This document shows positions 6,446-33,281 of a DNA stretch of 37,422 bases, one piece after another. Below the pieces are notes generated by a model. The model made no database searches. It was not told where the DNA came from and saw nothing but the letters and a program-made list of their open reading frames with translations. Numbering within the stretch: position 1 is the stretch's first letter; every line of letters begins with the position of its first letter. This DNA comes from a virus. The stretch is from IMG/VR virus record IMGVR_UViG_3300030085_002856, positions 268 through 37,689 of that record. One strand, given 5' to 3'. The translations under genes were made by a program, and so were the position numbers.

Positions 6446-9400
6446 TTATGAACGAACACTTGTCAAGTATTCGATACTCTTGATTCTATAGGATGCTCCA
6501 CCATTACCACTAATCTTCTCACCACCAATAATCGCATACCCAGCAGCACCAGAACCAGTTGTATCTGATGCATCATTAGTAAATGTTACTGTTGGGTGAA
6601 GATTGTATGTACCATCAATCGTAGATTCGATACCATAACCACCATTAGTTAAAGTGATACTAGCAACTTGATCACCCGCAGTTGTCATATTCACAGTTCC
6701 AACAGCCTGAATATCACCAACATTTTCAATAGTAACTGTAGGTGCAGCAGTATAGTTGGTTCCAGCATCTTGAATGTAGATATCTACGATGGTGCTATTT
6801 TCGGAGAACTGATACAGATATCCAGATTCACCGACATTTACGTTGCCAGTATTAAATGGAACAATATCTTTTACCTGCAGAATATTTGTATTAGGATCCC
6901 AAGATACGACAGTTCCTTGAATGCCAGAAACTTCTCCTGTTACCAACTCATTAACACTGAAGTTTTGTCCATTACCAGCATTTGGATCTAATGTAATATT
7001 AACAATGGATGTATGGTCTGTTCCTTCGCTAAGTCCTCCTGCGGTAGAAATATTCGCATATACAAATGGAACGCTAGCATCTTTAACACTATCACCAACT
7101 TGAAGCAGGGTTGTATTTGTTCCACCCTGAGTTTCTTCAATACCATAAAGTGAAGTGGCGATTCCACCATCTAAGTTAATCTGATTCTCAAAAGTAGTTC
7201 CAGTATTTACCAGGTCAGCAATTCCATCACCAGCACCATCGTTTTCATCATTATCTTCAAACTTTCTGTTTTGAAGTGTACTGATAGGAACTGTTAACGT
7301 TGTAATAGTTTCTCCATTTTCAATAAGAAGAACATGAGGTTGTTGTCCAGAATTGCTACTATTAGCGACTCCAGCATCAAACTGTACCGTTGCATCTTCA
7401 GCTAACGCCGCACCACCATCAATGAATGCAAGTTCATCAATCTCGAATACAACTAATAGCTCTCTTGTAACTGGATTCCAGTCATAGACTTTAGCTACCT
7501 TATTGTTAGCATTTTCAACTCTACGAATCAGTCTATCACCAACATTAAACTTATAAGTAGAGACTCCATTAATATCGTTTTGAGTGTCATCAAGAATAAC
7601 TCTCTGATCATAGTTGAAGTTTACACCACGAGTGAGACCAACAAACTTCTCGTCTGTTTTTGAAGTATAAGAAATAGTTTCATATCCGACAATAAACTCA
7701 CCAGAACCTGGGAAGGAACTAGTTGATTTAACAAAAATCTCAGTATCTGAAGGTGTTACACTCTTTGTTAGTCCAGACAGGTAAATATTTGATGCATTAA
7801 ATGCTTGACGAGATCTAGTCTTACGCTTCAGATTTACCAATCTAGTGAAAATGACATTAGGTGGAGTTGTATATCCTTCACCCTCTTCAGTAACAGTGAT
7901 TGAAGTTATTTCACCCTGACTAATTTCAGCTACTGCTTTTGCACCAACACCACCACCACCTGTAATCAGAATGTATGGTGCTTCTTGATAGAATTCACCA
8001 CTATTACCAATAGAAATAGAAGTAACTCTACCAGCGGTATCGATTTTAGCAGCACCTTGAGCATCTTGACCACCACCACCTTCAAAAATCATAGTAGGTG
8101 CGGTACTATAACTTCTTCCAGGATTGAGGAGTGTTAAACCAGTAACAGTTTGAACCGTTGGTGTGGCAACTGCTCCAGATCCTTCACCACCTAAGATTCT
8201 TGCTTTTGCAGGTCCATAATAGTTATCACCATTTTTTGACATTTTAATATAAGAGACTGTTCCTGAATCAGTTAATACAACCTCTCCTTCTGCACCATTT
8301 GGAAAAAGTTCTACCACGTCTGGCACAGCATCACTCTCAAAGAGTGGGGTTCCATAATATTTCGGACCAATAGCATATGGATATACAGGATCTCCATTAC
8401 TATCCTCAGTCATAAAGTATGCATAAGTTCCATTTGGATATTCTGGAGTTACTCCAAATTTACCATTGAACTCATCCAGAGTTCCAACTCCAGAATCGTA
8501 AATATAATCACTAACCAAATCTCCTAACAAATAACCAACTTGAACAGTTCTTAAACCGAGATTACTAGTTACATACGCAAAAATGTAAAGTGTTGTTGCT
8601 GCTGTTGCTGGAACTGTAAATCTTATTTCTCTCTGAGACGCAGCATTAAATCCCGCAATATATGCAGCAAAAGTAGAAACCTGAGATCCATCGAGATAAT
8701 ATTCTGATCCTAATGTAAACAGATAGGATGTATTTCCGATATCGGATGGATTACCTGTAGAGTGCCAACCATTTTCGGTTTCCGAGAATAATAAAAACTG
8801 ATCATCATTAGAAGAATCATCTTGATTGAAGACATAAGTTTTTCCCCTTTCAAGAGATAAGAAGTTTGGTCTAGAACCATCAAATAAAAACTGACCACTA
8901 GATACAGTCACATTATAAGTAACTGTTCCATTAGTATTAACCTGTGGTCTTGCACCAGCAAGTTCTGCAGTCGTTCTCAATCTATAAGATGAAACTTCTC
9001 TAGCAACAGTTCCACTAGAGTTATATCCCCAAGGACCATATATGGGATATCCATCAAAGGACATACCAATGACTTTAGAGTGTCCATCCGTATGACGACT
9101 GTAGTCTGGAGTACCACTATTGTCATAGTAGTTACTCACATAATAAGTATTTGGCGTAGTTTCCTCATCATGTTCTGGCTTGATAACCATATACCCTTCA
9201 TCACCATTATATCCAGACATGTCTGGATGACTTTTGCAGTAATAGTAAATCCTATTACTTTCATCTGCATTCATAATGAATAGTGGTTGATATTCATTTT
9301 CGTAGTCAGCCGCAGGTGCTGCAGAAGCACCTGTACTATTGTAATACAGTGTTCCAGGAGTATCATTATGAGTTCCATCCGCAGTTGTACTAAACTGCAT

Positions 9401-10606
9401 TGGGTGACCCAACATGTCTCCCATTGGTTGATTGGAGCTATGAGACTGATCCCATTTAATCAAATAATTTTCGGGAACTGTAATATTTTCAGGAGAAAGG
9501 TAATATGTACCAGGTACAAATGGACCGAAGTCTTCAGCATCTTCACCAAACTCAATATAGAAAATGCCGTTAGGAAAAGTTCTAGGTTCTTCTGAAATAG
9601 TAAATGTAAATCCATTAGATCCCAAACACCTATCATTCTCAGAAAACTGAGCACCAGTAGAAACAAGTCTCAAATAAACTCTGGTTATTTGATTTTCAGA
9701 GTTTCTACTAATCTTTGCAATCTCACCTCTTGCTCCTCCACCAATTTGATCAACGATTCTACCAACAGCGATTGACCCTAAGGTCTCATCGACATTGGTT
9801 ACAGATAACATAATATTATCAAACTCTACTTTTGTTCTCCAAGTATTTTGGATAAGGTTACCCCATTGAAAAACTCCATTGGGGAGAGCAAACTCATTAA
9901 TAGTTTTACTAGAATGATAATACTGAATATTTCCTTCAGTAACAGTATCGTAAATACTATTATTTTTTACATAATCATATTTTACAGAATCGATAGCAAA
10001 GTTAGCTAAAGCATTACCATCTGTACCCCACTCAGGCGTATGTAACAATCCACCATTGGCAAGAATACCCGTTACCTTATCATTTTGATCTAATCTAGTT
10101 CCAGGATTAGGAACGTCTTTACCACCTCTATAAATGAATACTTGATCGAAAGATCTATCTACAAGAGGTCCACCACTAGGTGCTGCCTCTGCTTGAGTCC
10201 AAGTGGGTTTGGGGTGATTATCAGATTCAATACGAAGTCTATCTGTCGTAGTTTGAAATGTTCCTCTTGTTAAAGAATTTGGATGATTTTGCCAAATCCT
10301 ATTGACATCAAACGAAGAAACTACATTTGGAGTTTCTTGCTCTGGAAAAATCTGTAAACGTAAAGGATCATATCCACGACCCCTTTCCAATACTCTTACA
10401 TGAATAATACGACCAGAAGTATCGTCGATGATTGGATACAAAAGAGCTTCTTGATCTGGCGTACCACAACCAGTTACCGTTAAACGTGGTGGATCTGCTG
10501 AATCATATCCAGATCCACCTTCTATTACTTTTATAGCACGAACACCGAAAATCTCATCAAAGATTGGTTCGATGACGGCACCCGACCCAGGAACAGTTCT
10601 AGCCAT
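6446..10606 (-). CDS. 1386-aa virion structural protein with cupredoxin-like and split YHYH-like domains
   Basis: A large beta-rich tail protein. GSGY repeats open it (EGGSGYDSADPPRLTV, ERGRGYDPLRL). Residues about 375-475 look like a cupredoxin domain: GHPMQF (His401), then YYYCKSHPDM with Cys457, His460 and Met463, the His/Cys/His/Met set of type 1 copper sites. Directly after comes a YHYH-like segment (VIGMSFDGYPIYGPWGY, about 512-530), whose second half (FNGKFGVTPEYPNGTYAYF) resumes near residue 710 after roughly 150 inserted residues resembling a second, ligand-free beta sandwich. Residues about 790-920 hold four more GSGY/GGGG repeats, and the C-terminus has another pair. It lies between the fibre-like gene and gp8 in a late cluster, so it is inferred to be a peripheral baseplate or fibre component. 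Metal binding is inferred from motif only. Confidence 0.85.
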   Translation of the reverse strand: MARTVPGSGAVIEPIFDEIFGVRAIKVIEGGSGYDSADPPRLTVTGCGTPDQEALLYPIIDDTSGRIIHVRVLERGRGYDPLRLQIFPEQETPNVVSSFDVNRIWQNHPNSLTRGTFQTTTDRLRIESDNHPKPTWTQAEAAPSGGPLVDRSFDQVFIYRGGKDVPNPGTRLDQNDKVTGILANGGLLHTPEWGTDGNALANFAIDSVKYDYVKNNSIYDTVTEGNIQYYHSSKTINEFALPNGVFQWGNLIQNTWRTKVEFDNIMLSVTNVDETLGSIAVGRIVDQIGGGARGEIAKISRNSENQITRVYLRLVSTGAQFSENDRCLGSNGFTFTISEEPRTFPNGIFYIEFGEDAEDFGPFVPGTYYLSPENITVPENYLIKWDQSHSSNQPMGDMLGHPMQFSTTADGTHNDTPGTLYYNSTGASAAPAADYENEYQPLFIMNADESNRIYYYCKSHPDMSGYNGDEGYMVIKPEHDEETTPNTYYVSNYYDNSGTPDYSRHTDGHSKVIGMSFDGYPIYGPWGYNSSGTVAREVSSYRLRTTAELAGARPQVNTNGTVTYNVTVSSGQFLFDGSRPNFLSLERGKTYVFNQDDSSNDDQFLLFSETENGWHSTGNPSDIGNTSYLFTLGSEYYLDGSQVSTFAAYIAGFNAASQREIRFTVPATAATTLYIFAYVTSNLGLRTVQVGYLLGDLVSDYIYDSGVGTLDEFNGKFGVTPEYPNGTYAYFMTEDSNGDPVYPYAIGPKYYGTPLFESDAVPDVVELFPNGAEGEVVLTDSGTVSYIKMSKNGDNYYGPAKARILGGEGSGAVATPTVQTVTGLTLLNPGRSYSTAPTMIFEGGGGQDAQGAAKIDTAGRVTSISIGNSGEFYQEAPYILITGGGGVGAKAVAEISQGEITSITVTEEGEGYTTPPNVIFTRLVNLKRKTRSRQAFNASNIYLSGLTKSVTPSDTEIFVKSTSSFPGSGEFIVGYETISYTSKTDEKFVGLTRGVNFNYDQRVILDDTQNDINGVSTYKFNVGDRLIRRVENANNKVAKVYDWNPVTRELLVVFEIDELAFIDGGAALAEDATVQFDAGVANSSNSGQQPHVLLIENGETITTLTVPISTLQNRKFEDNDENDGAGDGIADLVNTGTTFENQINLDGGIATSLYGIEETQGGTNTTLLQVGDSVKDASVPFVYANISTAGGLSEGTDHTSIVNITLDPNAGNGQNFSVNELVTGEVSGIQGTVVSWDPNTNILQVKDIVPFNTGNVNVGESGYLYQFSENSTIVDIYIQDAGTNYTAAPTVTIENVGDIQAVGTVNMTTAGDQVASITLTNGGYGIESTIDGTYNLHPTVTFTNDASDTTGSGAAGYAIIGGEKISGNGGASYRIKSIEYLTSVRS

Positions 10607-10611
10607 TTATA

Positions 10612-11832
10612 TCAGATTAATACGTTAATAGTTCCATTCATCTGTGCATGAATGGTGCATTGATAATAAAGGGTGTTAGGAGCGTCCATGGGAACGGTCC
10701 AATACAGAACACCAGTGCCACTACCAGTTTGACCAGTAGTATATGGAGTTCCAGATAATCCTTGAGTGCTTTGGATTCTAAATGGATGAGATCCGCCATT
10801 AGTACTGTTATCAAAGGCATATGTCATTCCTCTCATAACATAAAGAGTAGGATCATTAGTTGCTGCCGAGAATCCAGGACCATTAACAGTAAAATGATTC
10901 GCTCCATCTGCACCCAACTCCCACCAGGTCATTGGACTTCTAGTCACTACCCAATCAGTGCCATTCCAATATAAAGAATCGCCTTGAACAATACCAGAAA
11001 CATCAGTATCTGTCAGTGCTGCTAAAGTTGTAGTAAGAGTACCATTAAAATCAACTGTTAATGTATCTCCAGTAATAGATGTTGCAATATTGGTGCCACC
11101 AGCGATAGTGAGCGTATCTGAAGCACTATTTGCAGTAGTATTGCCCGTATCGGCAGAAATGGTAGCAAAAATATTTTGTTCTCCAGCACCAGCAGTATCA
11201 TCTGCAGGAACCCAGTTAGTTCCATTCCACTTCAAAACTTGATTGGAAGTGGGAGCAGTAGTTGTAGTATCAACATCCGCAAGAGCATCAATCCCCGAAT
11301 ACTCTGTAAGAAGTTTTACTCTACTATCGCCAACACCTCCAGTAGTGATGTTCATATTCACATATGGATTATCATCACCATCAACGGTAAAGAAATAACC
11401 AGGGGTGGATGCTGCAGAAGGAGCATTACCTAAGGAAGTATATTCATTCTTATATGAGATGGTAGAACCAACCTCAACTTTTCCCGTAGCACCATCAAAA
11501 ATAGTTGTTTGTGTTCCCGCAGTAATCCTAACATCACCTGTCCCATTAGGAACAATAGTAATATCTCCATTGGATGCAGACACAATAGAGTTGCCAGCAA
11601 CATCTAATGCGGAAGTTAACGCATTAAGATCGCCAGGAGCAAAAGAAGATCCATCATATTTTAGAACTTGACCCACTGCTGGGTTCAAGACATTAAGTCC
11701 GATTGTCGTTCCATTACCAATGGCGGCGTAAATCTCATTAAAGTTATCATTAATCTTATCACCGCCACTCCTTAGAGTATCACCCGTGCCGTCATTAGCA
11801 ACAGTACCAATGTTTAGGGATTGTTTAGCCAT
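10612..11832 (-). CDS. 406-aa tail-fibre-like protein with C-terminal cupredoxin-like domain
   Basis: The N-terminus (LNIGTVANDGTGDTLRSGG, then KINDNFNEIY) is a motif I associate with cyanophage tail-fibre and structural proteins. The middle carries three copies of a short fibre module: GQVLKYDGSSFAPGD, NQVLKWNGTNWVPADD and DSLYWNGTDWVVTRS. The last about 95 residues look like a cupredoxin fold: a GMTYAFDNS strand, GGSHPFRIQS (His349), and LYYQCTIHAQMNG with Cys392, His395 and Met398. The C-x2-H-x2-M spacing equals that of amicyanin. The gene follows the giant gene after 23 bp, with a late promoter motif overlapping the giant gene's stop codon. The function is inferred as a fibre or fibre-tip protein; copper binding is untested. 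No catalytic motif or signal peptide is visible. Confidence 0.85.
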   Translation of the reverse strand: MAKQSLNIGTVANDGTGDTLRSGGDKINDNFNEIYAAIGNGTTIGLNVLNPAVGQVLKYDGSSFAPGDLNALTSALDVAGNSIVSASNGDITIVPNGTGDVRITAGTQTTIFDGATGKVEVGSTISYKNEYTSLGNAPSAASTPGYFFTVDGDDNPYVNMNITTGGVGDSRVKLLTEYSGIDALADVDTTTTAPTSNQVLKWNGTNWVPADDTAGAGEQNIFATISADTGNTTANSASDTLTIAGGTNIATSITGDTLTVDFNGTLTTTLAALTDTDVSGIVQGDSLYWNGTDWVVTRSPMTWWELGADGANHFTVNGPGFSAATNDPTLYVMRGMTYAFDNSTNGGSHPFRIQSTQGLSGTPYTTGQTGSGTGVLYWTVPMDAPNTLYYQCTIHAQMNGTINVLI

Positions 11833-11852: not shown

Positions 11853-11860
11853 TATTTATG
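11853..11860 (-). promoter_or_regulatory. T4-like late promoter motif CATAAATA at the end of the giant gene
   Basis: The minus strand reads CATAAATA, with the TAA being the stop codon of the 6066-aa gene. The motif is about 20 bases before the ATG of the 406-aa gene. It matches NATAAATA and gives that gene its own late transcription start, which would be useful behind an 18-kb gene. Assigned by motif and position. Confidence 0.62.
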
Positions 11861-14800
11861 GGATTACTTCAGGGTCAATTACTTCTTCACCATACAGAGA
11901 AAGATCTGGTGCAGTCCAATCATCGGGAACAGAAGTTTCAACATCCACGCCTGGGTTTTGATATCCAGATCCAGGATTACTTAATGTTACCCCAGCAACT
12001 CCAACAAGTGCTTTTACTTGACCATCGAATCCAGAGATGGAATCAAGTCTTACGACAGGTCTAGATGTATATCCAGATCCACCAGATGTTACCTGAACAC
12101 TCTCAATATATCCGTTAGTTAAGACAGCAGTTGCTTGGGCATTCTGCCCAAATACAGATCCAAGATAATCAAATGTGATGAGTGAGTTAGAGGATTCAAT
12201 AACAGCAACTTCTCTATCAGTAACTTCACCTTCAATTTCAATGAAGTCTCCTACTTCGATTGGTGGTACGACCTCATCAGAGTCAACGTCTGCTTCAGAA
12301 CCAACAAAAGAGAATGCTACAAATGTAGATCCAACACGAGGGATTTCGGAGAAGATGATTCTAGAACCAACAATCTCAAAACCAACACCAGGTTCTTGAA
12401 GAACACCATTGACAGAAACAATGATATTATTCTCTGGGCGAATCACAGATGATTGTACACCATCTGTAAGTGTGAGAGAGTAGAAGACATCATTACGTCT
12501 TAAGTTGAAAGATTGACGCAATGAATCAAACTCGAAAGAAATGTCGTCAAGTTGTCTCAGTTTACCAATATAGAATCCAGTGAATGATGCTCCGATATCG
12601 GGTGCTTCAGTGAACTGAATCTTGTCTGAGAAAGCAGTGTATGCATTTGATGCACCAGGTGGTTGAAGGACACCATTAACAAAGACAAGCAAATGTCCTG
12701 CTGGATCTGGTAGATATTGGCTTCCATTGTCGATAGTAAGATCAAATGTTGTTTGAGTACCATCAAATCCACGGAAGAAACGCTTAACTCTAGCTTTAAG
12801 GGTTTCCTTAGTAAGAACCGCTGCACGATAAGTTCCTGGTCCTCTGATACCATCTCTGGTAGAGAATGTTCCAGCAATATCCGTGAGATAGAGTCTCTTA
12901 TTAAGACCAGAATCTCTAACATCTTGTACAAGTGCAGAAGCAGCACCAACAATAGTGTCTTTATTGGTAACCGTTGCAGATCCAACTAAAGTAGTGCCAG
13001 TTGCACCAAAGTCACCAACAGCATTATTGATAGAAATAGTTCCTTGTACCTGAACGATATAAACGTAGTTATTGTTTAAATCGACTTCAGTAATAATGCC
13101 ATATGTATTTGTAAATGCAGCACCACCAGACTGGAGATACAATCTATTACCAACAGTGAACTGATTGAGATTAGAATCTACATTAAGCGTCAATCTAATA
13201 TGACCAAGAGAAGCGATTTTAGTACCAACTTCAATATCAAGACCAGCATATTTGCTGACTTCTAAGTACTGTCTAGAAGACTCAGGATATACAACAGCAG
13301 TAGTTTCAAGAGATCCAGTAAGAGTCTCAGTATCGATAGTCAATGTACCGCCTGTGTTGTCAGTTACCGCTGCTTGATTTGTTGTATACGAAACAGGATC
13401 TGCAGACTCGGTGCTTGTGTATCCAAGGAAAGGAATATCCTCTTCAAAAGTACCGACAACATCAATCAGATGTAAGCGTTTTTCAATGGCACTAATCTGT
13501 GCTGTTGTTGTATTTTCAGCACCGACAATAGTGTCTAAGATTGCCCATGTTCCGCCAGTTACAGCAACATCAAGATATTTGTAGTTAGCATCTTCAAAGA
13601 ATCCATAAACAACACCAGTTACCGCAGCATCACCTTGTTTTTGAACAGTCTCATTCATTGTAAAGGGACCGTCAGTAATATTGCCATCAATCCTGAATCT
13701 TTGATAGGTTTTGGCAACTTGTGCTTCGTTTTTAGTGATAGATTGGATTTCTGCAAAGACATCTCTATCGCTAGAGTAGAAGAAATCTGATGCAATAAGT
13801 TCACCACTGATTCCAATAGGAATATTACGAGTTCCATAAAGTTTAGTGGGAACACTCAATGCATTGTTTTCATCTACGGTCGTATAATGTTCACTGGATT
13901 TGAGTTGTCCGTTGATGATATCAATGCTAGTTCTTACGAACGACATAATAGTGTCCGTATTATAGTTTGCCGCAGCAGTTGAACTATAGAACTTATAGAA
14001 AGAAGCAGCAGTAGATGGACTTACTAAGGTATTAGAAAGTGATCTTCTAATGTAATCAAGAAGAAGATCTAATGTAAACTTCTTGATATTATATTCAGAG
14101 TTTGCATAGAACTCTTGACCAGAAACCGCAGCATAAGTTCCCAAAGTACCCGTGTTAAGTGCTGCACCCCAGACGTAAATACCAGAGACATCATCACCAG
14201 TGAATGATGATAAATTATCATTATTTCTAATCCTAAGTCTTGTTCTTAAGGTACTAAATCCAAAGGAAATAGTAAATGTTGCGTAAACTCTATACCATCC
14301 ATTACCAAAAGGAATAGTATCCAATGTATAAGACTCTACACCACCCTGACTTTGGAAGACAGAACCATAGGAACCATCGGTCAGATCAATATTAACGAAG
14401 ATGGAGTTCGCATTTGGTTGCCCTTGATCCAACCAAACAATAAAGGCAACTCTAGAGTACTCACCAGCTTTGATAAACATCGAAGTAGTAAATGTTTGAG
14501 TACCAGTAGTCGAACCTTGGTCAAATCTAGATGTATCTGCATCAAACTTAACCGTATCAGCATCCATGGTTGTGTATTGAGTAAGAGCATAGTCTCTATA
14601 CGTTCCATTGTTCTGACCAGAACCAGAAGTAGCAACAAGTTTTTCTGCTGTTAATGTGTTATCTGGAGCAAGAGCAGCATTAGGAGTCCAAGTAGTACTT
14701 ACTGGGGTCCAGTTGACATTGAATGCTTCAGGATTAGTCCAAAGATTTGTAGGAGTGACAGCACCTTCAATCAGAGAAGAAATAGCAGTAGCACTCTCAA

Positions 14801-17800
14801 TACTCTTAATATTACTAATATCGTTATACCACTCATGAGCACTCGTGACTCCACCAGTTGCAATAGTTGCACTACCACCAGATGCAGAGGTAATAGTTGC
14901 ACCAGCAGCATATATGGTTCCACTTAGAGAACCAATAACCAATGTATCTTGAGAGAAATAAAGGACTGTGGATGTTGTTGATCCACCAGTTACAGTTTCA
15001 CCAACATTGAAAGTTCCACTGTAAGCACTAAGGGTTAAAGTATATGCAGTTTGCGTATCGGATGTATCCGTAGTAAGGAGATCATATTGGATATTGTCAA
15101 CAATATTTTCAACAAAATCATTATATTGCCAAGAGTTAGTTCCAAACTGACTATTTACATTAGAAGCGATCTCTGCTTTATAGTAGTTTTCATTATACAG
15201 GATGTTCTTAACAGCACTTCTTGCCTCAATATCACCTGGGAATAATGTATCAATACCAGTATCTACAAGTTCCTTCATTCTGCAAGAGACTGCATCAATA
15301 TCAGTTGGAGTCTCACTGTCTCTATATGCAGTATCATCAGTGTACAATGCAGCATATTGATCTCCTGTTACCGAAGATCCTGCATCGTAAAGAAGATTCT
15401 TGATTGCCTTCTCACTAAGAACTTTGATTTGCTCATGAGCGTAGTAGAAAGCATATAGTTGATCATCGATATCATCACTAATCTTCAGTTGAGCATCTAA
15501 GAAAGTCTCCATCTGAGTGATAACACTATTATTACCACCAGTCTGAAGATCGGAAATCATTGCAATAATGAAATCTTTGATATATGTCTCATATGTGCTA
15601 CGATCATATGTGATTGCAGAGAACGTTCCATTGTTAATGGTATATTGCAACTCTGTACCAAGTAATCCAAGAAGAGTAGAACGACCTGCGATCTCCTCTG
15701 CAATGTATTTTCTATTAAAGTATAATCTATCACCACCAATATTATAATCATCTCCAGTTGGAGCAATAACATCATTGAATGTGGTAATCAGAGTATCAAT
15801 AGCACTTTCGACGTTTGCACAACCACCTGGATCATTAGTAATACCCCAATCACCAGTAATAATATTATCAGTGTTATCATATGTCAGGTCACCATTGATC
15901 GCCTGCTTCATATAATAACCAATTCTTTCGTGTGCATAAACAGACTGCCAAACCTGAAGTCTGATGTGCAACAACTGATTATTACCATCTAAGTAGAACT
16001 TAGACGTAGTAATCGTATTGAGATTACCACCATTCTCAATATCCTTAGCCAACTGCCCAACAATAATAGTAAGGTCAGTCTTACAACGCTCGGTGCCATC
16101 GGTGCTACCACCAACGTTTCTTGGCATCTCATTTGCAAGATCTGGATATCTAGTAAGCATATCATGTGCTGCTTTGTCTACGATAACCGCAGTGTTAGCA
16201 CGAATCAGATTAGCAGCATCTCTAAATCTGTTGCGAGATGTTTCTCCAATGCGATGAGTATAAACAGAATCACCAGTTCCATCATGATATGTTCCTGTAA
16301 AGGGAACTTCGTAATAAGCATCAACAACACCAGAGAGGAACTCAGTTACTGGTTCTACTTTAGTAATCGTAGCAAGGTGATCACCATCAGCAGTATTTGA
16401 CGTGGTTCCAATCGCCTCAGAAATAGTATCCTCAACAATATCCGTTAAGTTTCCTACCGTAGATACAACGTCTGCACAATCCGATGTGGTATAAGGAATG
16501 ACCGTTACTGCATTGGTATCTGCACTTACAAATGTGTGTGCAAACTGTGCATTAGCAGGAGAAACACCAACATTTACAGTAAATGTATCAGTAGAAACTG
16601 CAGTAATATCCAAAACGCGATTGTACGCATGAGTATCACTAACGCGAGGGTGTGCGAGAATACAATCATTACCATCACTGGTGCAGGTAAACTTGAGTGA
16701 ACCAGGTGCAATAGAAATACTATTTGCAGTAGTCAATCCATGTGATGCAGAAGTAATAACAAGATTTCCATTTGCAGGATCATAAGATACAGTAGTTGGA
16801 GTTAAAGTAGTTACAGTTCCATAAGAAGAATCAGTGACAGTGGAATCAGTCCACTGCTTCAATCCATGACTACCTGCAATAGTAATGAGAACATTATTGA
16901 CAATCGAAGACATGTGACCTTGGATTGTCTGATAACCAGTTAACAAGTGATTGTCATCAGTAGTTGAATAACCAACAATACCACTTACTGTTGAACCAGT
17001 TCTATCTACAAGAGCGGCAGCCGTGTCCCACATGTGACTGTTACTTCCATTACGAATATCTTCAATCAGTTGATTAAGGATTGTAGTATATGTCGCACTA
17101 AAGTTTGTGGAAGAAGATCCACCTGCCTGAACTGCAGCATGTTCACCTTCTTCTGCAAGCAGTTGGATGTTTCTACGAATAGCTTCAGAAGCATCATAAT
17201 ATCTGTGAGTTTTGAATGCAAATCCTGTAGGAAGGTTAGCAGAGTTTGCTCTCCAAGTTTCCAAGATAGCATCATTGTGGAACTCTTCACCAGCAGTAAA
17301 CGATTCAGATCCAGACCAATCTTGTGTATAAGTCTGAGCGTCTGCACCATCAAAGTGAATCAATAGAACAGTATTGGCATCACCATGGAACATACCTGTG
17401 GGAGCGGTGAATGCTGCTGTATAACGAGCATTGGTAGAAACTCTAAGATCATCAATATGACCAGGGAATACTGCACTTCCATTAAGGTTTGCACCAATTT
17501 TAATAGGTCGTGTTGAACCATAATCAGTAGTATCTGTAAGATCAGAACCCTCCTGAGTACCATTAAGATACAACTTGGTTACACCACTTGCTCTAACTAC
17601 TGCAACGTGATACCAGGTATCAACAACGAGATTGGTGGTTCCAGTAATAGATCCAGCTCCGTTTGCCGATTGGAATGCCAGTGTAGATCCACTTAAATAT
17701 AAGTTTGCAGCAGTATCGCTACTAGTAGGTCTAAAATCTACAAGCATTTTTGTTCCACTAGCAACGTTCGCAGGGCGAATCCAAGTTTCAACGGTAAAGT

Positions 17801-20800
17801 CGCCAGTACCAAAACCAAACTCTGTAGAAGTTGCAATAGAAAGATAATCACCAGTACCATCAAGTAAGAGTGAAGTTGTACCAAACTTCTTCTGAGCGGT
17901 ATCTAACTGAGCATCACCATTGAAAGTGATTGTATGATAATCTTCACCAGTAGATTTACATCTACCGATTTTACCAAGATACACAGTTTTTCTCGCCTGA
18001 CTGTATCCAATAATTTCCGCTTTAGTATCAGTAGTTCTGATAATCTGACCCTGAGAGAAGAATCCACTACCAAGTGAGTCGGTAAAAGTTAACTTCTTAA
18101 CTTTGAAGTTTTCTCCAACAATAAACTCACCAGTATTGCTACCATAACGAATATTGTAGTTTCTAATATATTCATTATCGTCAAAATTACCCGTTTCATT
18201 ATCATAAACCAAGATGTTATTGCTAATCGACTCATTAGCAGGGAACTTCGCATCAAAAGCAGTCAGATTATCATCAAAATCGACAATACTTGTCTGAGAC
18301 TTAGAGATATCATCAAGAATAACATTAGGATAAGTAATAGATGTCAAACGGTTGAAGAGCAGACCAAAGAAGGAAGATCCAGAGGAAATATTGACCTGTT
18401 CAATAAACTCACTAGTTACAGGATCTTGATATGCACTTGTTTGTGTTACACGAGCAACAACTCCAGACTGAGCACCAATAATATAATCATTCAGTTGAAT
18501 GTTAAACAGACCTGGTGTTGACTGATAAGTACCTGTAGTCTTACTAAGTGTAAGTGTATTGGTAACTTCAATATCAGTAGAATACATTGGTGTATCTTCC
18601 TGATGTGAAGTAGCTGTTGTACCAAGTTGACCTCTAGTAATAGTGATTGTCGTGGACTCAGATCCATTTGATACACTGTCGATTCTAACAATCTCAGAAG
18701 CAAGTTGATAGTTATCACCTACTGTAAATGTTCCTGCAGGCAGAGGTGCATCGGTTGTAGACGTAGTAGAAACCATCTCAACGCTGGTTGATGCAGCACC
18801 GATTGTATAACGAAGTTCTGCAATAGGAGTTTCTTGACCAGTCTCAAGGTTGATTGTTTCTACAACTGCAGTGTCACCAGTAAGATTAGTGATTTGCTCA
18901 TTGAATGCAAATAAACCACTATTGGTTACACTTTCTACAGTCTGTAATGTACCATTAAATCCAGTAGCTGCAACTTGACATTGCTCACTAGTGATGAATG
19001 TTCCTTGAGTAATAAATCCACTAATCTCATTTCCAGCAACTGATGTTACTGTCAGACGTGCATTAGAAACAATACCAACAAGGGTATCACCAATGCTGGG
19101 GAAAATACCACTCGTAAATACAAACGAGAGAGTTACTGTACTAACTTGCTCAATACTAACATTGACATACTTAACACTTGCAGGTGGTTGAGGTGGTTGG
19201 GCGAATACAATAGAATCTCCCTGAACTTCAAACGCAGTGTCTGGAGTTTGTGCAACACCATTGAGAACAATCAGAAGCTGATTTGCATTTGCAATGACAT
19301 TTTCACCATTAACAGTAAGTGGGAACTGAGTTCTCTCACCATCGAAGAGATTTGAAACATCATCTAAGCGTTGAACAACAGAGGTCAAAATATTCTCAGA
19401 AGAAGTCAGTTTCTTCTGACGGAATAAAACTTCACTGTTATTAAACTCAGAATAAACAGGTTCTACTAGAGCAAAGTTTTGAATATTAGGTACTGTTGCA
19501 TCTCTAGCAAGTTCAACTGATTTGGTGAGTTCAAAGTCAATCTCTTTATTTGCAGTGAAACCATATTCATCAATATTAAGTTCACCAAATACCTTAAATG
19601 AAGCGGGGTGAACATTCTTAATCAGAATGTCTTTCCAGTCATCAATAGATACCGAAGACTTAACAGCATAAGAGAAATCTTGATAATAATAAGAATCTTG
19701 AATCTTTTGAATAATCTCAGATGGTTTACCAACATCATCAATAAACTGACCCGTGGTTTTAGTAATAGGACCGATCTCAAGAACACCTTTCGCGATCTTA
19801 AGATCACTGATAACACCCGAAGATTTAGAGATAACACCAGTAATACTTTGACCTTGCGTAAAATCGCCAGTGTAATCTACAACTTTCAAGATTCTAGGAC
19901 CAACTTGCCATCCCTCATTAGTAGAAACATAACCAGTTGCTGTTGCAGTATCTAAAGAATCACCTTGATAAACAAGTTCTCCTTCTAAGAAAGTTGATGT
20001 AATGACATTTGCCTCAGCTTCTGCACCAAAAGATTCAGTCAATACTTGCTGCCTTCCAGTACCAGCATTGGCAAATGCAATAGAATCGCCAAGTTCAGCG
20101 TTAGCTGAAGTAATAGCAAGTTTCAGTTGATCATCTTCAAGAGAGTTAGCAGTTCCAGCAATAGCATAATATGTGGTTGTGCCATTTAATCTACCAACAG
20201 CACCAGAAGCAAGTGGGAACTCGGTTCCTTCACCAGTATCAACAACATTTAGAGTAACTTCCGCACCATTTTGAATGCCGTGAGGGAAAGCAAACTGCAG
20301 CAACCCTAAATCAAGGTTTACAACATAGTTAAAGGAAGATTTAAGTTGAATAGTAGGTGCAGAAGAATATCCTGCACCAGGATCTTTGATGGTGATCTGA
20401 TCGATTCTTCCATTTTTAATCGTTGCTTCAGCAATAGCACCAGACCCACCACCACCAGTAACAACTACAGCAGGTGCTTGTGAATATCCAGAACCAGGAT
20501 TAGTAACAGTAATACTGTCAAGAATGCTTGTAGAGGTTAACTGTGCATTGAGTGGGAAAGTGATTTCAGGACGTAAAGTATAGTCATGTGGATAATCATA
20601 TCCGAAGTTATTGTTCTTCAGTTTTTTGATCTTACCAACGTTAGTTCCTTTAGCAAAGACAACTGCTCCAGTACCAAACGGAGGAATAACTACTTCAACC
20701 TCTGCACCAGATCCAGTGAGTCCAGGTCCAAGAATGCCATTAACTGCTTCAATATCAATGTTTGCAGTGGTATATCCCTTTCCAGGAGAAGTAATGGTAA

Positions 20801-23800
20801 CTGACTGGATTTGACCAGGAATGGTATCTCCTTCATCATTAGTACCATCTGCGACAACAATAGTAACTAAACCACCCTCACCATCACCACCAATAGGTAC
20901 ACTATTGTATGTACCAACAGCATATTCAGTTCCAGGTTCGTTGATCTGAACTCTTTCAATCTTTCTAGAAGATTGAATACCAGTTACAACTGGCAACTTA
21001 GCATAGAATCCACCAGGATTAATAAGTCTAATATCAGCAATACTACCAACTGCTTTTTTAGATGAAGTGCTATAGGTAGCACTAGTGATAGTTGCATCCC
21101 CTTCAGGTTCATTAATCAGAGGGAACTTGATAATATTTGCACCTGTTGTGATAGTCGCACCAGCAATTTCACTAACAGTGAATGTTCCAAGATAAGGTGA
21201 ATCAACAATATCCAGATAACTATTTGTATCGATTGGAGAATCATCACCTACTCTAGATGGATCGAAATAATAAGAAATATTTGTAACAACATTTCTATCA
21301 ACTTTCAACTTAACAGTTGGAGTGGGTTGACCTTCTCCAGTAACTCCAGGAGTTCCAATCCTTTCAATGGAGTTAAAGGAATATTCCAGTTTGTAGATAT
21401 TATCTTTCGAGAAAGAAAGATTAGATCCCAACATAGAAGAATGACTGAGGTCAAACAGATATTGATGACCATAGTACATTTTCAATACAGGAGATTTAGC
21501 AAAAATACTAACACTAGATGCATTTGTTGCTGGAGAAGTTTGAGCTACAGCATCTAACTTATAAACAAATTCCCTATTACTTACAACTCTGTCAACAATA
21601 AAAGAACCATCATATTCATCATAGACAACGCCACCAACAGTTTCAGATGGATTACCATCAACCAAAATATTATCACCAACAGACAGATAATGCCTAGATC
21701 CAGTAATAATATAAACTTCATCGGTATTAGCAACAGCAGTTACCTGCAAAACCTTATCAAGAGTAGAAATCAGAGTAATCTTAGTAACACCCGTAAGATT
21801 TGTGATTTGTGCGGTAGTTTTTGCTGAGTTAAAAGAAATATCACTAGATGTAATACTAACAACAGATCCTGGAATGAATGAAGAAGATCCAGAAATCTCT
21901 TCAATTTTTACTGAATACGAATCAACATCAAATGGCTTAAACTTAGCAAAACTATCTAAATCTCCAGATCCTGCAGATTCTGTTCTATTTAAGTTATAGT
22001 CATTTAAATCAATATCAAAGGTTCCTGGAGTTGTGTTAACAACATTACTAAAATTATACTCAGTGATTACATTTACATCAGTAGGAACTTTTCCGACGAT
22101 TCCGTAAGTATCTTGCGAATCAAACTGTTCTGTAGAAAGAAGACCTGTATTAAGATCATCTGACCATGCATTATTGTTTACAGCAAGATAGATTTTGTTA
22201 TTAGCATTATCTACACGAAGAACATATCCACTGTTGATAAATGATCCAGAGTCATTTCTCAATACGAGTTTAGATCCAATCGTAACATTAAATGCTTGAT
22301 TGATAGTCAGTTCTTGTACATTATCATTCTTAACTGTATTCGTTACCTTCATATAGTAACGATTTTTGACTATTGCTGTCAACTTAAGTTTTTGAGATCC
22401 AGGAGAAGGAACCGTAGCAGTTCTAGAACTCCAAGTATCTGAAGTATAAGACAGTGCTTCGGTGTCTTGCTGCATAGTGGTTGTAGCATCCTCAAAATCT
22501 AATCCCTGGAATCCAGCACTTCCTAATGCAAAACCAGTATTAGATACAGTTAATGTAACTCCAGTAACTGCAGTGACCGATGTTCTAGCAAACCCAACAT
22601 TGGTATTTGTTTGAACTCCTTGATCACCCAATCGATCGGCATCAGAATCTTTATCAGTTTTAAGTCCCCAACCAACATAATCAATATAATCATAACGATT
22701 CATGTTTGTCGTAAACCATGCATCATCTGTCCAATCATAAGTAAGACCAAATGCATCTGCAGCAGGGATTACGGTAACATCACTAGGTACAGTGGGAGTA
22801 ACCGCTCTATTTCTAAGTCTCAGATTGTCAACATAATATTGACCCTGATAAGTTGATGCAAACTGAGTTGCAGTGCCATTCTTACCAGGAATATTACCAA
22901 TATAAAGATCTTTACCATTTAGTTGAGTAGATGCAATAGTTCCAGTTACAATCTGAATACCATTGATATAAGCAGTAAATACATTACCTTCTTTCTTCAA
23001 TCCAACAAACTGCCAAGTATCATCAGCAAACATCGATGTTTGAGTGGATTGGAGAGCACCACTAGCACTATTAAGAGCAGTAGTATTATCAGTAACAACT
23101 AACTCAAGTTTTCCACTAGAAATATCATAATACATCCAAAGACCACCAGTAGCATCGGTTGCATCACCAATAGCAACCAATGTTTGTTGAGTTTGACTAT
23201 GAGTTTGAGAGTTAGTTGCATCTTTATAGAGCATAAACTCTAAAGTCCAATCATCACTAAGTTTAGTTCCAAGACTTGCTGAGGTAAACTGAATAGCAGC
23301 ATTTTCCCAGTTTGCGGGAGTAGCAATATCTTTACCGAACAGTTTTGCAACACCATCACCAACAAGAGTGAGGGAATCAGTCGCATTATTACCAATCAGT
23401 GTTGGTGTATAATGACCAGTTTTATCTGTAGCAGCGTCAGTTTCATCAAACTCAAAGATAAACTCATTTCTGTTCCAAGAAGTTTGACCAAATACATAAA
23501 CATCACCAGAGTTATCTACTGTAATAGCATTTGCAGTAATACCTTCGATGTTATTAGCATTAAACTCATTATTAGTGTGAGTTTTAAGGACACCATCATA
23601 TGCAATCTTAACAGTATCCACTGTCTTATATCCAGTAGTACTATCAGTTCTGGTATATGCAAGATTCAACTGACCAAAGATATCAATAGTGCTTCTACCA
23701 GCAAGTTCAATCGAGTTTCCAGTTGGAGCAAGATATCTGTAGTTCCAAAGTAAATCTCCATCAGTATCTACTTTACCAACCCAGAAACTATCTCTGACAG

Positions 23801-26800
23801 TGTTGTCAGATTTCAGTGCCAAAGTAGCACTAATATAGAACTCGTCAAACTCATCAACAACTAAAGAAGTATCTTTGAAAGAGTATGCAGTATTATTGAT
23901 TTCTTTAATCCATTCAACAGTAATGGCAGAAGTTCCAACCAATACCTTACCAAAAGAAACCTTTGTATCCAAAGATCCATTGCTAGGAGATGTCTCCATA
24001 ACAAAGTAAACCGCATCATTTAATACAACTAAATCAGTGATTTTTTCAGACCCAGATGCTGATGCAAGTTTTCTCTTTGCTGCAATAGTTCCAGTGGAAT
24101 CAATAGAAGCAATAAAAGCATCTTGAGGATTTGCTGAGTTTGTATTAGTAAAACCAGCAATAATGTACCTAGTATCAGAGTACCTCTTAATGTCAGTAAT
24201 ATTATCAGATCTGGTAGCACCAGAAATACCAGAATAACCTTTCTGGAAAGAAAGTGTTGCACTCAATCCATCTAATGCTTGGGTGTATTTTACTAAAATG
24301 ATATCAGGATTATATGCAGCAAGAATCGAAGAGTTTGGTTTATTTTGACCAACTACCCAAATATCATTACCACTAATATCAAGTTTTACAAACTCAGTAT
24401 AAGTTTCTCCAGCTTCACTTTCAAGAGTTTTTTCCCACTCTTTAACACCAAGTTCAGAAAACTTAGAAACAAAAGCAACTTCATTGCCATTTGCCTCTAA
24501 AGTTTTACCACAGAAGAAAATCTCTTTATCGTCATTAACAACTACGTCATTTACTTTTACATATTCTTCATGCTCAATAAGAGAGACATAGTAGTTTGCT
24601 TTTTTGAAGATCTGTGGGTGGCTTAAGATGACTCTTGGATTCTTGGTATACCCAGATCCAGAGTTAACAATATCAACCGACTCAATGGATCCAACAGAGC
24701 TAACTGTTGCTCTAAGTTCTGCAGATTCTCCATCACCATCAATAGTGATAGTTGGAGGAATCTCAGCATCATATCCACCACCTGTTTGATCAATAACAAT
24801 CTCTTCAATACCTTTTAGTTGTCGAACAACAAACTGTTTGTTTGTTGAATCCATAACAGGAGTATAATCAACATAAACAGTGTCACCAACAACAATATTG
24901 TGAGGAACACTTGTAGTCAGAACTCCAACAAAGTCATCTTGAACTGCTTCAAATGTATATGCTGAAATAGTTTCTCCCTTGATTTTAGATATTCTTGCAG
25001 AAACACCTATTCCATCAGTATTTTCATTATCAAAGATAAGAATATCATCTACCTGATAACTTTTACCCGAATCTTCGATAATAAATCCCGTTACAGAAGC
25101 ATCTTCAAACTTTGTAGTAGTTTCAACTTCAATATCAACTTTTGAATCGAATCTTACCGATGGGAAATAATCAAAGAGTTGTAATGGCGACTCTTCAAAG
25201 ATTTGATCAGGATCATCTGTTTCATCCTGACTAATGACACCATCCCTATTTTCATCTTCAACTTCAAATAATAAAATATCACCAGATTCTGTTGTTAGAG
25301 CATTTGTAGATACATTTGGTGCCCTGTCAACATCAATATCAACATTTTCATATGGATCGCGATATCTAACAACACCCGTAGGAATATTTTGCTGGATAGC
25401 ATCTTTGTTTAGATTCCAAGAATCAACAATAGAGTTAAAACTTGGTCCTAAAACATATGGGAATACTGGATTTCCATTCTCAGTAGCATCAACGGTAATG
25501 AAATAACAATATTTTCCTTCTGGGAAATCAGGTGTCTTACAGAAACGACCATTATATTGATCAAGATCACCAAGTCCGAAAGAATATTCATAGTCTTCAA
25601 CAAACTTACCAGCAACTTCGTCCGTTAACAGTGGACCCTCAGTTCTTACTGGATATGGATTTGTAACTTCATCATATACAAGATTACTCTTCAATCTATA
25701 AGAAGTATTCAAACGAGCAATACTAGAAGATTGATCTGTAGGATCACTATATCCATAAGGACCATAGATGGGATTACCATCAAATGCCCATCCAATGATA
25801 GGAGAGTGTTCCAGTTGGGTTTCTTGCTCTAAAATAGATCCTGTAATACTCTCAAAAAGATTGTCTCCAAGAATATATCTAAGTCTTTGTGGATTTGAAA
25901 TGTGAGCATATTCACCACCATATTGATTATTAAATCCAGCAAATACAGATCCCTTTGCTTCGTCAACAGTTGCAGTTTCCTGAAGATTGTATGTCCACTC
26001 AAAAACTCTAGGACTAAAAGTTGCTCCAGATCCAACAGATGTCAGATTAATAAGGGTTGTTCCTTGAATATAGTTAATGCCCCTGTTAATGATTTCGATA
26101 CCAGTAACTTTTCCTGCATTTTCACCATCAATATCAATAGTAGCACGAGCAACAGCACCAAAACCATCGCCTTGAATAGAAACTTCAGGTGCCGTAGTAT
26201 ATCCCTGTCCACCTGAAATAATCGCAATAGAGATGATTCTTCCATTACTTACGATTGCTTGAGCAACAGCACCTGTTCCAGAACTTAATGTAACATCTGG
26301 TTTAGATGTATAAGAAGAACCGCCAGAGGTAACTGCAATGGACTTGATAGGTCCTCTAACAGAAGCAGTAGCTGTTGCACCAGTTCCACCACCACCAACA
26401 ATGGTGATTGAGGGTTGTGACGTATATCCAGTACCACCAGTATTCATTAAAATACTAGAAACAACGCCCCTTGTTACGATTGCAGTTGCTGCAGCACCAG
26501 ATCCGCCGCCACCAACGATGGAAACAAGTGGAGAAGACGTATATCCAGATCCACCATTATCTACAACAATCTCGGTAATGGAACCATTAACAGTTACGTC
26601 TGCAGCTGCACCAGATCCACCGCCACCAGAGAATGTGATTGTTGGTGGTGAAGATGCATCATAATCAGATCCAGATGTTAGAATATCAACGGCAGTAACA
26701 GGTCCAAAAGTTTTTGTAATATCAGATTTGTAAGACCAAACTGAAGTTCCATTAATCCAAGTACCAATAGGACCAGGTTTAATGGCATCCTTAATCGAAA

Positions 26801-29800
26801 TGGTAGAAGGAGATAATGGGAATCTATTTAACTTACGCTGGTTTCCAGGTAAAAGTGCTGATCCTGGGAAAGGACCAATCTTATAGTTTGGAATACCAGT
26901 AGATGCAACATAAACATGATCATTATTGAAAAACGAGTTCTGAATATTTGTAGTGTAAGGTCCAATGGAGTTAAGAACAGCACTATTATCAGACTTACCT
27001 TTATTAAGGTCAACAGATACTAAAATGTTACCTTGAGGTGTAACTTCTGCTGGTTGAGGAAGTTGATATTGAAAAACTGTAGTACTATCTCTAGAAGTTA
27101 CTAAGAAAGATCCATTGTAAATGATTGGATTTGCACCATAAACAGTTACCTGATCTCCAACAAGAAGACCATGATCATTTGAACAAGTAACAGTTGCATA
27201 TCTGTTATCTACACCACCAAATGTAATACTATCTACTTCTAAAAGTTTTTTAACATTATACAACCAAGTTTTAAGTGCTGGATCCTCGGAGGTTCCACCA
27301 AGTTTGGATACTGACAGTTTATCTCCAGAAAGATAATAAGATCCAGTGTCTGTCAGAGTGGTTTCTTGGGCATCTACAATACCAACTACATTCAAGACTA
27401 CTTCTTGAGGTGTATTTCTATTAATATGTACAATAAGATTAGATGTTACTTCGGTGGCAGAATCCCAATCTTCTACAACGTTGTTAACAGAACGAGTACA
27501 TTCAATGAACTGGTTGAGAGACTTTTCTTTATATTGAATAAGTTCAGTGTCACCAATAATAAACTCACCATTTCTTTCAGGCCAACCAATAGTTGAGTCT
27601 ACTGTAATAATACTATCTGTGGTATTGAGAGGTTCTGCAAGTTTTGTTTTATAAGGAACTACAAAAGTACCTTGAATAGTTTCCTCAGAAAGAACTAACT
27701 CAAAAAGTTCTACATCAGAAGTTTTAATAGAGATATAGTTCTCAACTAAGGCACTAGCTTCCCCAATGTTTGGGTCAGCAATATTAGCTTCTTGTACCAA
27801 TAATCCATCTTTAATATTAGTAGGATCTCCACTAACTAAGGTGGCACGAAGAATAGTATCGATAGACCAAGTTGCTGCCGATGGTTTTGTAATCTGATCT
27901 TTAGGATAAGATACTGTTACTTGCTCACCATAAAGAAGTTTGAACAAATATGCAACACTAAAAGAAGTTCCTTTTGTAGAATAAAAATCCTTTACAGATT
28001 TAATCGCATTTCTTACATCAATCTTTTTATAGTCAAGTTCAGGAACATCAGGAAGAAACTGCTCTGTATACTTATCAAGTAATCTCTTTACAAATAATGC
28101 ATCTAAACACTTTACTTCAGTTCCCTCGGTTGCAGAAGCAGCAGTAGTATTATTGGAAAATACTGCATTGCCAGATTCAGTGTAATCTACGATTCCACTT
28201 GCAGCTCTAGCACAACCTTCAAGTTGTGCTTTATTATAACCTTTACCACTCTTTGATACAGTGAAACCAGTAATCTCATTCAATCCAATCTCAACAGAAG
28301 CCCGAGCTTGTGGGGGATCCTGAATAATAACTGTAGGGGGATTGGCAGAAGAATAACCGCCACCAAAGTTAGTGATGTTAATATCTGTGATTTTTCCATT
28401 AAAAACAGAAGCAGTTGCAGTTGCACCACTACCAGGATCTTCACTATTATCTACAATGTAAACTGATGGAATATCGTCATATCCAGTACCACCACTCAAA
28501 AGTTCTACAGAAACAACTCTACCATCACCATCAACTAATGTCTCTAAAACTTGAGCACCTGTAGGATCAACAATAGCAACTCTAGGAACATTAACATATC
28601 CCTGACCAGCATTTACAATATTGATAGAAGTAACTACACCATTTGTTAAAACTGCTTCTAAATTTGGTACGATAGCATTGTCTCCTGTTGGAGCATCAAT
28701 ATACACAGTGGGTGCAGTCGTATATCCAGATCCACCAGAAACGACCTCAATAGTTCCACTCAATCTACCATCAGTAATAGTAGCAGGTCCTAGTTTTGCA
28801 CCACCAGGTTGCTTGAAAGAAACTCTAGGAACAAACGTATACCCACTTCCAGAGTTTACAACTTCAATACTAGATACAGTCCCATTAGTAACAACTGCCT
28901 TTAGTTCAGCTTGCTTTGAATCTACATTTGTAGGTGCTTCAATGATTACTGCGGGAGGATTTGTATCACTATACCCTTTACCACCATCCAAAAGAACTGA
29001 GTTCTTAATGCCATTTACAAGAGCTGTAGCAGCTGCTCCCTGACCATCTACACTATTGATAGAAACTTTTGGAGGATACTTATAGTCATATTGAGATCCA
29101 GTTTCATTAATACTAATGGAAGAAAGTTGTCCAGAATCATTAATGCGTGCATATCCCACTGCACCAGAACCAAAATCAGGAATAGGTGCCTCAATGGAAT
29201 ATAAAGAAAGGAGTCTTCCATTTAAAGGTGCTTCATTAAAGATGAAAATATCACCATCAATAAAAAAGTCTACCTTAGGAACAAGAAGTTCATTATCATA
29301 AACCGCTAAAATGTATTCTTCTGCAATAGGTTCATAAGATACTGCACTTCTAGTGATCTTAAACTCAGTTTGACCTTCTCCAAAAGATCCAGAAATATCA
29401 TCAATAGCAATAATAGCATTTTCAACAAAACCACTTAAAAAAGTGATAGAAGTACTAGTATTATCATCACCAGCAATTCTTGCTCTTGGTGCTGTCGTAA
29501 ATACAATGTCTGTTCCATCAACAGTGTAATCTCTTCCAGGAACTAAAACTTCATTGTAAACAGTTACAATAAGATGCTGTGCAGATGGAGCACTGATAGG
29601 GGAAGATTGAGATGTAAGAGGGAAGCGAACAGTTGTTCCATCAAACAAATCAATGATCTGAGCAAGACCAGTCCACTTTAACTTTACCTGATCATAAGAG
29701 ATACCAGGGCTAAGAGAAATATTTGGAGAAGCAGTAGTCTTCTCATAGTAGATTACTTCGTCACCAATAAGGACTGATCCATTAGCATCAAGAAAACTAT

Positions 29801-32708: not shown

Positions 32709-33281
32709 TTAAATACCTCCTGTCATTAATCCAATAAAAACATTGATGCTTGCTCCAGTAACTACTGAAGTGCATGGAAAAGCAGGTGTAAAGTCTCCTA
32801 GAGGGTCCCCAAAGACGCTCGCCCGCCTTCCGTTAATAAAGACTGTCTTTTGGGTTGCAAAGTGCTTTCTAGGGTGTCCTGTAGGAGCCTCTCGACCTGC
32901 TACAGCACCTATTGTACACCAATGAGCAGGATTTGTCACGCAACCTGGTGGACAACCTTTTGGAATCCCTGTATAACACACTTGGTGAGTAGTGGGTGTA
33001 GGATGGGGAGTTAATATGTCTTGATCTACAATAGGTATAATCCCATTGATAAAAACATTTCTAAGTGCCCCAAGAGGTGTTGCTGGTGACTGCATCAATG
33101 GTGGCCAAAGTGTAGTGGCATTCATTAATGTCACGGTTTTAGGTACAATCTTTGGATCCAATGGAGGCATCATACATCCAGGCAAAACACCACCACCCAA
33201 TCCTGCGTGGTGTGTAGATCCCGAACCTGTTCCATGACCACTACAAGGTCCCTGATAGATTCCTGCTGCTCCTGCTCCCAT
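32709..33281 (-). CDS. PAAR-like baseplate spike-tip protein (gp5.4-like)
   Basis: This 190-aa protein is Gly/Pro-rich with two PAAR-type strands: NVFINGIIPIVDQDIL (residues 75-90) and TVFINGRRASVFGDPLGDF (146-164), followed by SVVTGASINVFIG. PAAR proteins cap the central spike of phage tails and type VI secretion systems with a sharp, often metal-bound cone. Cysteines at 13, 36, 102, 110, 114, 122 and 170 and histidines at 16, 24, 25, 93, 99, 120, 136 and 140 offer metal ligands. T4 gp5.4 is about 97 aa, so this is roughly double, consistent with two PAAR-like halves or an inserted segment. It starts 2 bp after the 980-aa gene; the Shine-Dalgarno of the next gene is encoded in its last codons. 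Family call is by motif and context. Confidence 0.78.
   Translation of the reverse strand: MGAGAAGIYQGPCSGHGTGSGSTHHAGLGGGVLPGCMMPPLDPKIVPKTVTLMNATTLWPPLMQSPATPLGALRNVFINGIIPIVDQDILTPHPTPTTHQVCYTGIPKGCPPGCVTNPAHWCTIGAVAGREAPTGHPRKHFATQKTVFINGRRASVFGDPLGDFTPAFPCTSVVTGASINVFIGLMTGGI
32716..32721 (-). promoter_or_regulatory. Strong Shine-Dalgarno AGGAGG inside the end of the PAAR-like gene
   Basis: The minus strand reads ACAGGAGGTATTTAATCATG. AGGAGG codes for part of Thr-Gly-Gly of the PAAR-like protein and lies 9 bases before the ATG of the 48-aa gene. It is the strongest ribosome site I see here; most other starts have only GAG-type sites. Confidence 0.75.

Follow-up and report, generated by a model that had tools for sequence, protein, structure and literature searches.

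The window analyzed here (37,422 bases of a 39,164-base IMG/VR virus record) carries on its minus strand a T4-like baseplate operon. The operon encodes a 980-aa wedge protein (PHROG 719), a PAAR-like protein, gp25, gp6, a giant protein of 6066 aa, and gp8, as well as a gp9-type protein of 406 aa (10612..11832, minus strand) and a gp10-like baseplate wedge protein of 1386 aa that contains a YHYH domain (6446..10606, minus strand; PHROG 708, E 0; PF14240, E 7.2e-18). The giant protein is a single open frame between gp6 and gp9 (11856-30056, minus strand); repeats of the GxGYTxxPxV type are numerous in it, and a YHYH-like motif, AFDGNPIYGPYGY, occurs around residue 1445. A 190-aa protein with 7 Cys and 8 His (32709-33281, minus strand) adjoins gp25 and matches PHROG 281 (PAAR motif). 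A PADLOC search returned no defense-system match.

The 406-aa open reading frame is a gp9-type baseplate wedge protein, or tail-fiber connector, of a T4-like marine cyanophage. Its N-terminal gp9/gp10-like anchor (residues 3-67; 11632..11826, minus strand) matches PF07880 (T4_gp9_10_N) with an E-value of 1.5e-11 and 45.1 bits, which passes the gathering cut-off of 25, and a full-length match (residues 1-405, E 4.1e-191) was obtained to PHROG 677, the baseplate wedge tail fiber connector family. The protein thus shares the N-terminal module of T4 gp9 and gp10 (PF07880), and its gene occupies the same position among gp25, gp6, and gp8; to our knowledge, neither T4 protein has a cupredoxin domain. 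The C-terminal domain was found in 336 records (E <1e-3), and its closest annotated relatives belong to Synechococcus and Prochlorococcus phages, the best being S-CAM22 (86% over the domain). The relatives carry the gene name gp9 and the description ‘baseplate wedge tail fiber connector’, and those examined are mostly annotated in the Kyanoviridae. In S-ShM2, the annotation of gp9 comprises two overlapping frames (SShM2_095 and SShM2_096; L082:3037-4279), possibly a frameshifted or split gene. The first-pass annotation had placed the domain at the tip of a tail fiber; it is instead the C-terminal domain of a baseplate connector. Baseplate wedge proteins were detected by mass spectrometry in the virion of the related T4-like cyanophage S-CREM2 (PMC10665884), and by analogy it is reasonable to expect the 406-aa protein in the virion as well.

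Translation of the open reading frame places His349 in GGSHPFRIQS (HPF motif; codon 10786..10788, minus strand) and Cys392, His395, and Met398 in YYQCTIHAQMNG (ligand loop 10639..10659, minus strand, with the Met398 codon at 10639-10641), so that the four candidate copper ligands stand exactly where they had been read by eye (within 10635-10790). The C-x2-H-x2-M spacing proposed to resemble amicyanin is likewise confirmed. The 43 positions between His349 and Cys392 had been counted correctly and likened to plastocyanin; with gaps between the first His and the Cys of 39 in amicyanin and 47 in plastocyanin, however, the value falls between the two and is not specifically plastocyanin-like. The 406-aa protein has one Cys and three His, and when its residues were shuffled, C-x2-H-x2-M arose in 23 of 200,000 permutations and never (0 of 200,000) with a His 30 to 60 residues upstream.

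The C-terminal domain (residues 298-406, about 109 residues; 10615..10941, minus strand) is predicted with high confidence to be a cupredoxin domain, on the evidence of an AlphaFold2 model, VIA comparisons, and profile matches. Modeled with 92 aligned family members, residues 298-406 gave an all-beta structure of nine strands (pLDDT 95.4, pTM 0.88). In the numbering of the model, the ligands are H52, C95, H98, and M101 and the relevant strands span 54-57, 90-95, and 102-108, so that the first His immediately precedes a core strand and the Cys, His, and Met are located at and after the end of the penultimate strand, which is the placement seen in type 1 copper proteins. The best VIA match was the N-terminal type 1 copper domain of a three-domain nitrite reductase (2dv6; Z 10.3, rmsd 2.4, 95 aligned residues), followed by rusticyanin (Z mostly 8.3-9.5; at Z up to 9.5, rmsd 2.4 with 94 aligned). 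The remaining matches listed were laccases, a multicopper oxidase, and auracyanin, and every VIA match listed is a copper protein with the cupredoxin fold, a Greek-key beta-sandwich. Foldseek ranked nitrite reductase, laccases, and amicyanin at the top, with some immunoglobulin-like domains at weaker scores. Structure prediction, named at the outset as a check on the copper-ligand reading, therefore returned a cupredoxin fold whose match to type 1 copper proteins extends across the entire domain.

At the level of sequence, only profiles linked the domain to known copper proteins. When the single sequence was searched against the PDB with phmmer, the matches were essentially noise, apart from a weak one to copper nitrite reductase. 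A profile built from 11 divergent members of the family retrieved nitrite reductase (8.6e-7) and rusticyanin (5e-5) from the same database, and then pseudoazurin, plastocyanin, and amicyanin, and it aligned the phage His with the ‘gH’ of rusticyanin and the Cys, His, and Met with rusticyanin’s ‘YYVCQIPGHAATGM’. When the search was repeated with a 92-row profile, the amicyanin loop YHCTPHPFM aligned with YyqCevHsaM, and hhalign gave the same register for both rusticyanin (2.8e-5) and amicyanin (1.1e-4). By both HMMER and hhalign, all four residues are thus in register with the copper ligands of these two proteins. With the ligand columns masked, rusticyanin was still listed, at a nonsignificant E of 0.07-0.15; the sequence link to known copper proteins therefore leans on the ligand motif, whereas the structural link does not. 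The curated amicyanin model TIGR02657 scored 12.5 bits, far below its cut-off of 110.2, and Pfam Copper-bind (PF00127) listed no match to the domain of the window, although three relatives of the domain matched it weakly (best E 4.7e-4). For back-translated scanning, single members were used because an alignment of the divergent members was too variable.

Set beside individual systems, the phage domain has the predicted fold of rusticyanin and of the N-terminal type 1 copper domain of nitrite reductase (2dv6, 6tfd) over its whole length (Z 8.3-10.3), with the same ligand order and, for rusticyanin, the same register. Those proteins are free or enzyme-bound periplasmic electron carriers, whereas the phage domain forms the C-terminus of a baseplate protein; moreover, the ligand-loop spacings of rusticyanin are longer than the C-x2-H-x2-M of the phage domain, which also has a Pro after the first His. 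Amicyanin shares the C-x2-H-x2-M loop (‘YHCTPHPFMRGKV’ against ‘YYQCTIHAQMNGTI’), but it works in the context of methylamine dehydrogenase, for which the phage domain has no counterpart. Plastocyanin (PF00127) has the same fold class and ligand set and is only distantly similar. Cyanophages carry plastocyanin itself as a host gene, petE (PMC3037559). PetE is a separate soluble protein of photosynthesis, unlike the phage domain, which is part of a baseplate protein, and both occur in the same phage group. The type 1 domains of multicopper oxidases and laccases have the same fold (Z about 8), but these enzymes additionally possess type 2/3 copper ligands and a second catalytic domain, both of which the 406-aa protein lacks. 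Laccases and multicopper oxidases have a His-Pro pair at the first ligand, as does the phage domain.

This Pro follows the first His in 96% of the 287 ligand-bearing copies of the family, in place of the Asn or Ser found directly after it in small blue copper proteins (plastocyanin, amicyanin, azurin). It removes the backbone NH that bonds the Cys sulfur in plastocyanin, a property shared with laccases. By analogy, the phage site may be expected to have a high potential and to favor Cu(I).

Conservation of the ligands was assessed in several ways. In a 92-row alignment of ligand-bearing sequences, no columns other than those of H, C, H, and M are invariant, and the four are likewise invariant in a second alignment. 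For a set assembled blind to the ligands, 80 loci were fetched with the first 377 residues of the diverged S-WAM1 gp9 as sole query. In this set, 78 loci run into the domain and represent 42 distinct sequences; the ligands are kept in all of them (H 78/78, C 76/76, H 76/76, M 70/70), the shortfall from 78 being due to contig ends or alignment ends. The four residues thus do not vary freely among homologues. Across 72 distinct gp9 proteins, synonymous codons replace one another freely at the ligand positions (CAC/CAT 42/30, TGC/TGT 36/36, and CAT/CAC 46/26 for the first His, the Cys, and the second His), which shows that the constraint acts on the protein, and in 65 of these 72 the ligand Cys is the sole Cys. 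A chance coincidence of residues picked out by eye, conceivable for so short a motif, is in our view vanishingly improbable: it is contradicted by the shuffling, the predicted fold, and the register, and the conservation of the ligands rules it out altogether.

A ligand-masked profile was furthermore run over 275 loci and yielded 333 distinct domains in which all four ligand columns are filled. All four ligands are retained in 287 of them and none in 42, and only four domains are intermediate, two of which are gap artifacts of a C-x2-H-x3-M variant. Independent loss at the same rates would give 191, 0.1, and 142 domains with four, no, and an intermediate number of ligands, a comparison that serves as an illustration and not as a test because the domains are related. 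Nearly all of the 42 copies without ligands come from a single gp10 lineage and hence do not represent 42 independent losses.

In the window, the masked profile located two further copies of the domain in the neighboring gp10-like protein. Copy 1 (residues 372-465; 9212..9493, minus strand) has a full set of ligands, H401, C457, H460, and M463, which are invariant in 32 of 32 aligned gp10 homologues. Copy 2, the third cupredoxin of the locus (residues 569-683; 8558..8902, minus strand), has lost them, its ligand columns reading Q-A-T-L in the window, and all four were lost in every homologue examined. Where gp10 homologues have both copies, H, C, H, and M are always kept in copy 1, and the corresponding positions of copy 2 have drifted freely (E/Q/N/F/D, A/G/S, and others). 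The AlphaFold2 model of the gp10 stretch that spans both copies and the YHYH domain was poor overall (pLDDT 57), and only its locally good parts were used; the best structural matches of the copy 2 region were mostly rusticyanin and laccase domains at a modest Z of about 6, and Foldseek listed nothing below E 0.001 for the modeled stretch. PF14240 (YHYH) matches the gp10-like protein in two stretches, and copy 2 lies just before the better one (residues 692-737). In one relative, a further cupredoxin copy that retains H, C, H, and M lies between copies 1 and 2 (L015:4698-5048); four others (L030, L054, L079, and L080) have an insertion of similar size in which no cupredoxin copy was detected.

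Copy 2 is a natural control for the intact sites. Since it keeps the predicted fold without the ligands, the fold does not need a metal, and the all-or-none pattern indicates that an unneeded metal site decays as a unit while a retained one is retained completely. This pattern is the strongest argument of the analysis that the sites that were kept have a role requiring all four ligands, and a need for all four of H, C, H, and M most likely means copper. The main competing explanation is a cupredoxin-derived adhesion or structural domain in a copper-free virion, where the four residues are kept for packing or for another metal, for example zinc. Cupredoxin folds without copper do exist, copy 2 among them, the protein is made in a copper-poor cytoplasm, and the first His is followed by Pro and not by Asn. 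Packing of single residues, however, would not make the ligands vanish together (287/42/4), and Met is an unusual ligand for zinc, so that this explanation is considered unlikely. The proposal that the residues form a type 1 copper ligand set gains support from the predicted cupredoxin fold and from ligands that do not vary. Homology, predicted fold, ligand register, and all-or-none retention are results of computation, and copper binding is what we infer from them: the domain is probably a cupredoxin module of the virion with a selected type 1 copper site.

The domain family is widespread. Syn9 and S-CAM8 carry the domain, Foldseek identified it in numerous proteins of cyanophage tails and baseplates, and the GenBank matches include phages of Pelagibacter and Methylophilales. 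(For counting records with the gp10 copy, a hand-made consensus of that copy served as query and was used for this purpose only.) The PHROGs that contain the domain are labeled tail fiber, tail spike, baseplate wedge, or unknown, and as a mobile building block it has been reused repeatedly in proteins of marine phage tails and baseplates. In the BFVD, weaker resemblance (TM no higher than 0.75, identity near 20%) extended to beta-sandwich proteins encoded in the genomes of Pithovirus LCPAC and Marseillevirus LCMAC. Genomes of marine bacteria (SAR86, Woeseiaceae, Actinomarina, and others; L254-L274) carry the domain on very large proteins and on apparent lipoproteins, whose N-termini, judged by eye, resemble lipoprotein signals; lipoproteins are a normal place for cupredoxins. 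A few of the bacterial contigs look like phage, one of which (L273) begins like gp9, and another locus (L269) has two tandem copies of the domain with C-x2-H-x3-M. None of the curated Pfam, NCBIfam, and PHROGs families names the domain as a copper domain, although an automatic ‘cupredoxin’ label may exist for some of the proteins. In the open-access literature, no paper was found that joins cupredoxin, phage, and baseplate or that joins YHYH and cupredoxin, and a search for cupredoxin and cyanophage returned one paper, on Borgs. The domain is thus a member of the cupredoxin family in a place where the sources searched name none.

If copper is bound, the domain would form a complete type 1 (blue) copper site with one copper, coordinated by His349, at the beginning of a core strand, and by Cys392, His395, and Met398, all in the loop that connects the last two strands. 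Because the protein must fold inside the host cytoplasm, which offers little free copper, the metal would probably be loaded at or after lysis, its source probably being the host envelope or oxic seawater. The bound copper would then lock both the ligand loop and the exposed side of a receptor-facing or fiber-docking module at the end of each gp9 arm, holding the module in its working form outside the cell. Granted copper binding, we tentatively favor such a copper-locked attachment module, at somewhat below an even chance, and place it ahead of docking and redox triggering.

In the redox alternative, the site would sense the change from reducing conditions in the cytoplasm to oxic seawater, or else the redox state of the cell surface, and would act as a trigger by altering the conformation or affinity of the arm. 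The ligand set is that of electron-transfer centers and the nearest structural neighbors are redox proteins; furthermore, the gp9 set shows no variation at the four ligands, although other residues could meet a need for strength alone. Reduction, however, hardly alters the geometry of type 1 copper sites, so that they serve poorly as conformational switches, and neither a redox partner domain nor an electron-transfer chain was seen in the protein or its neighbors. A role as redox trigger is thus rather improbable.

The other alternative assigns the site to a docking surface, on which the copper and the exposed His395 would contact a copper-handling or periplasmic electron-transfer protein of the host. 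An analogous docking has reportedly been proposed for iron in phage tails as the ‘Ferrojan horse’ idea. The known metal sites of phage tails hold iron or zinc in fibers and spikes, not type 1 copper in a cupredoxin domain. They nevertheless provide a precedent in tail fibers: HxH iron sites occur in tail fibers and spikes and likewise place metal on a host-facing part of the virion, and potential iron-binding domains are reported in the tail fiber of an Alteromonas phage (PMC11705849). Docking also fits the two intact candidate sites on baseplate proteins and the spread of the domain across marine tail fiber and baseplate families. Against it stand the lack of a known receptor, the presence of bacterial relatives on apparent surface proteins, and the occurrence of the same domain in phages of unrelated hosts (cyanobacteria, Pelagibacter, and Methylophilales), and we judge it to have a low probability. 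The copper-locked attachment module therefore keeps its tentative preference, with the copper-free or zinc-binding role as its main rival.

T4-like cyanophages are among the commonest phages of the sunlit ocean, and we know of no earlier type 1 copper site in a structural protein of a virion. That cyanophage baseplates (gp9 and gp10) carry working blue-copper sites, and that copper or redox state takes part in attachment or in triggering infection, is a possible but still doubtful proposition. If the sites hold copper, each virion could bear tens of copper ions on its host-facing surface; with gp9 and gp10 trimers in six wedges, as in T4, gp9 would contribute 18 and gp10 up to 18. The resemblance of the domain to electron-carrying blue copper proteins, in predicted fold and strictly kept residues, suggests copper sites on the tails of many ocean viruses. 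Such a finding would give a name to a domain that is now unnamed across many marine tail and baseplate families, and would make the copper content of virions, the effects of copper on cyanophage adsorption, and a viral part in marine copper cycling testable with existing phage-host pairs.
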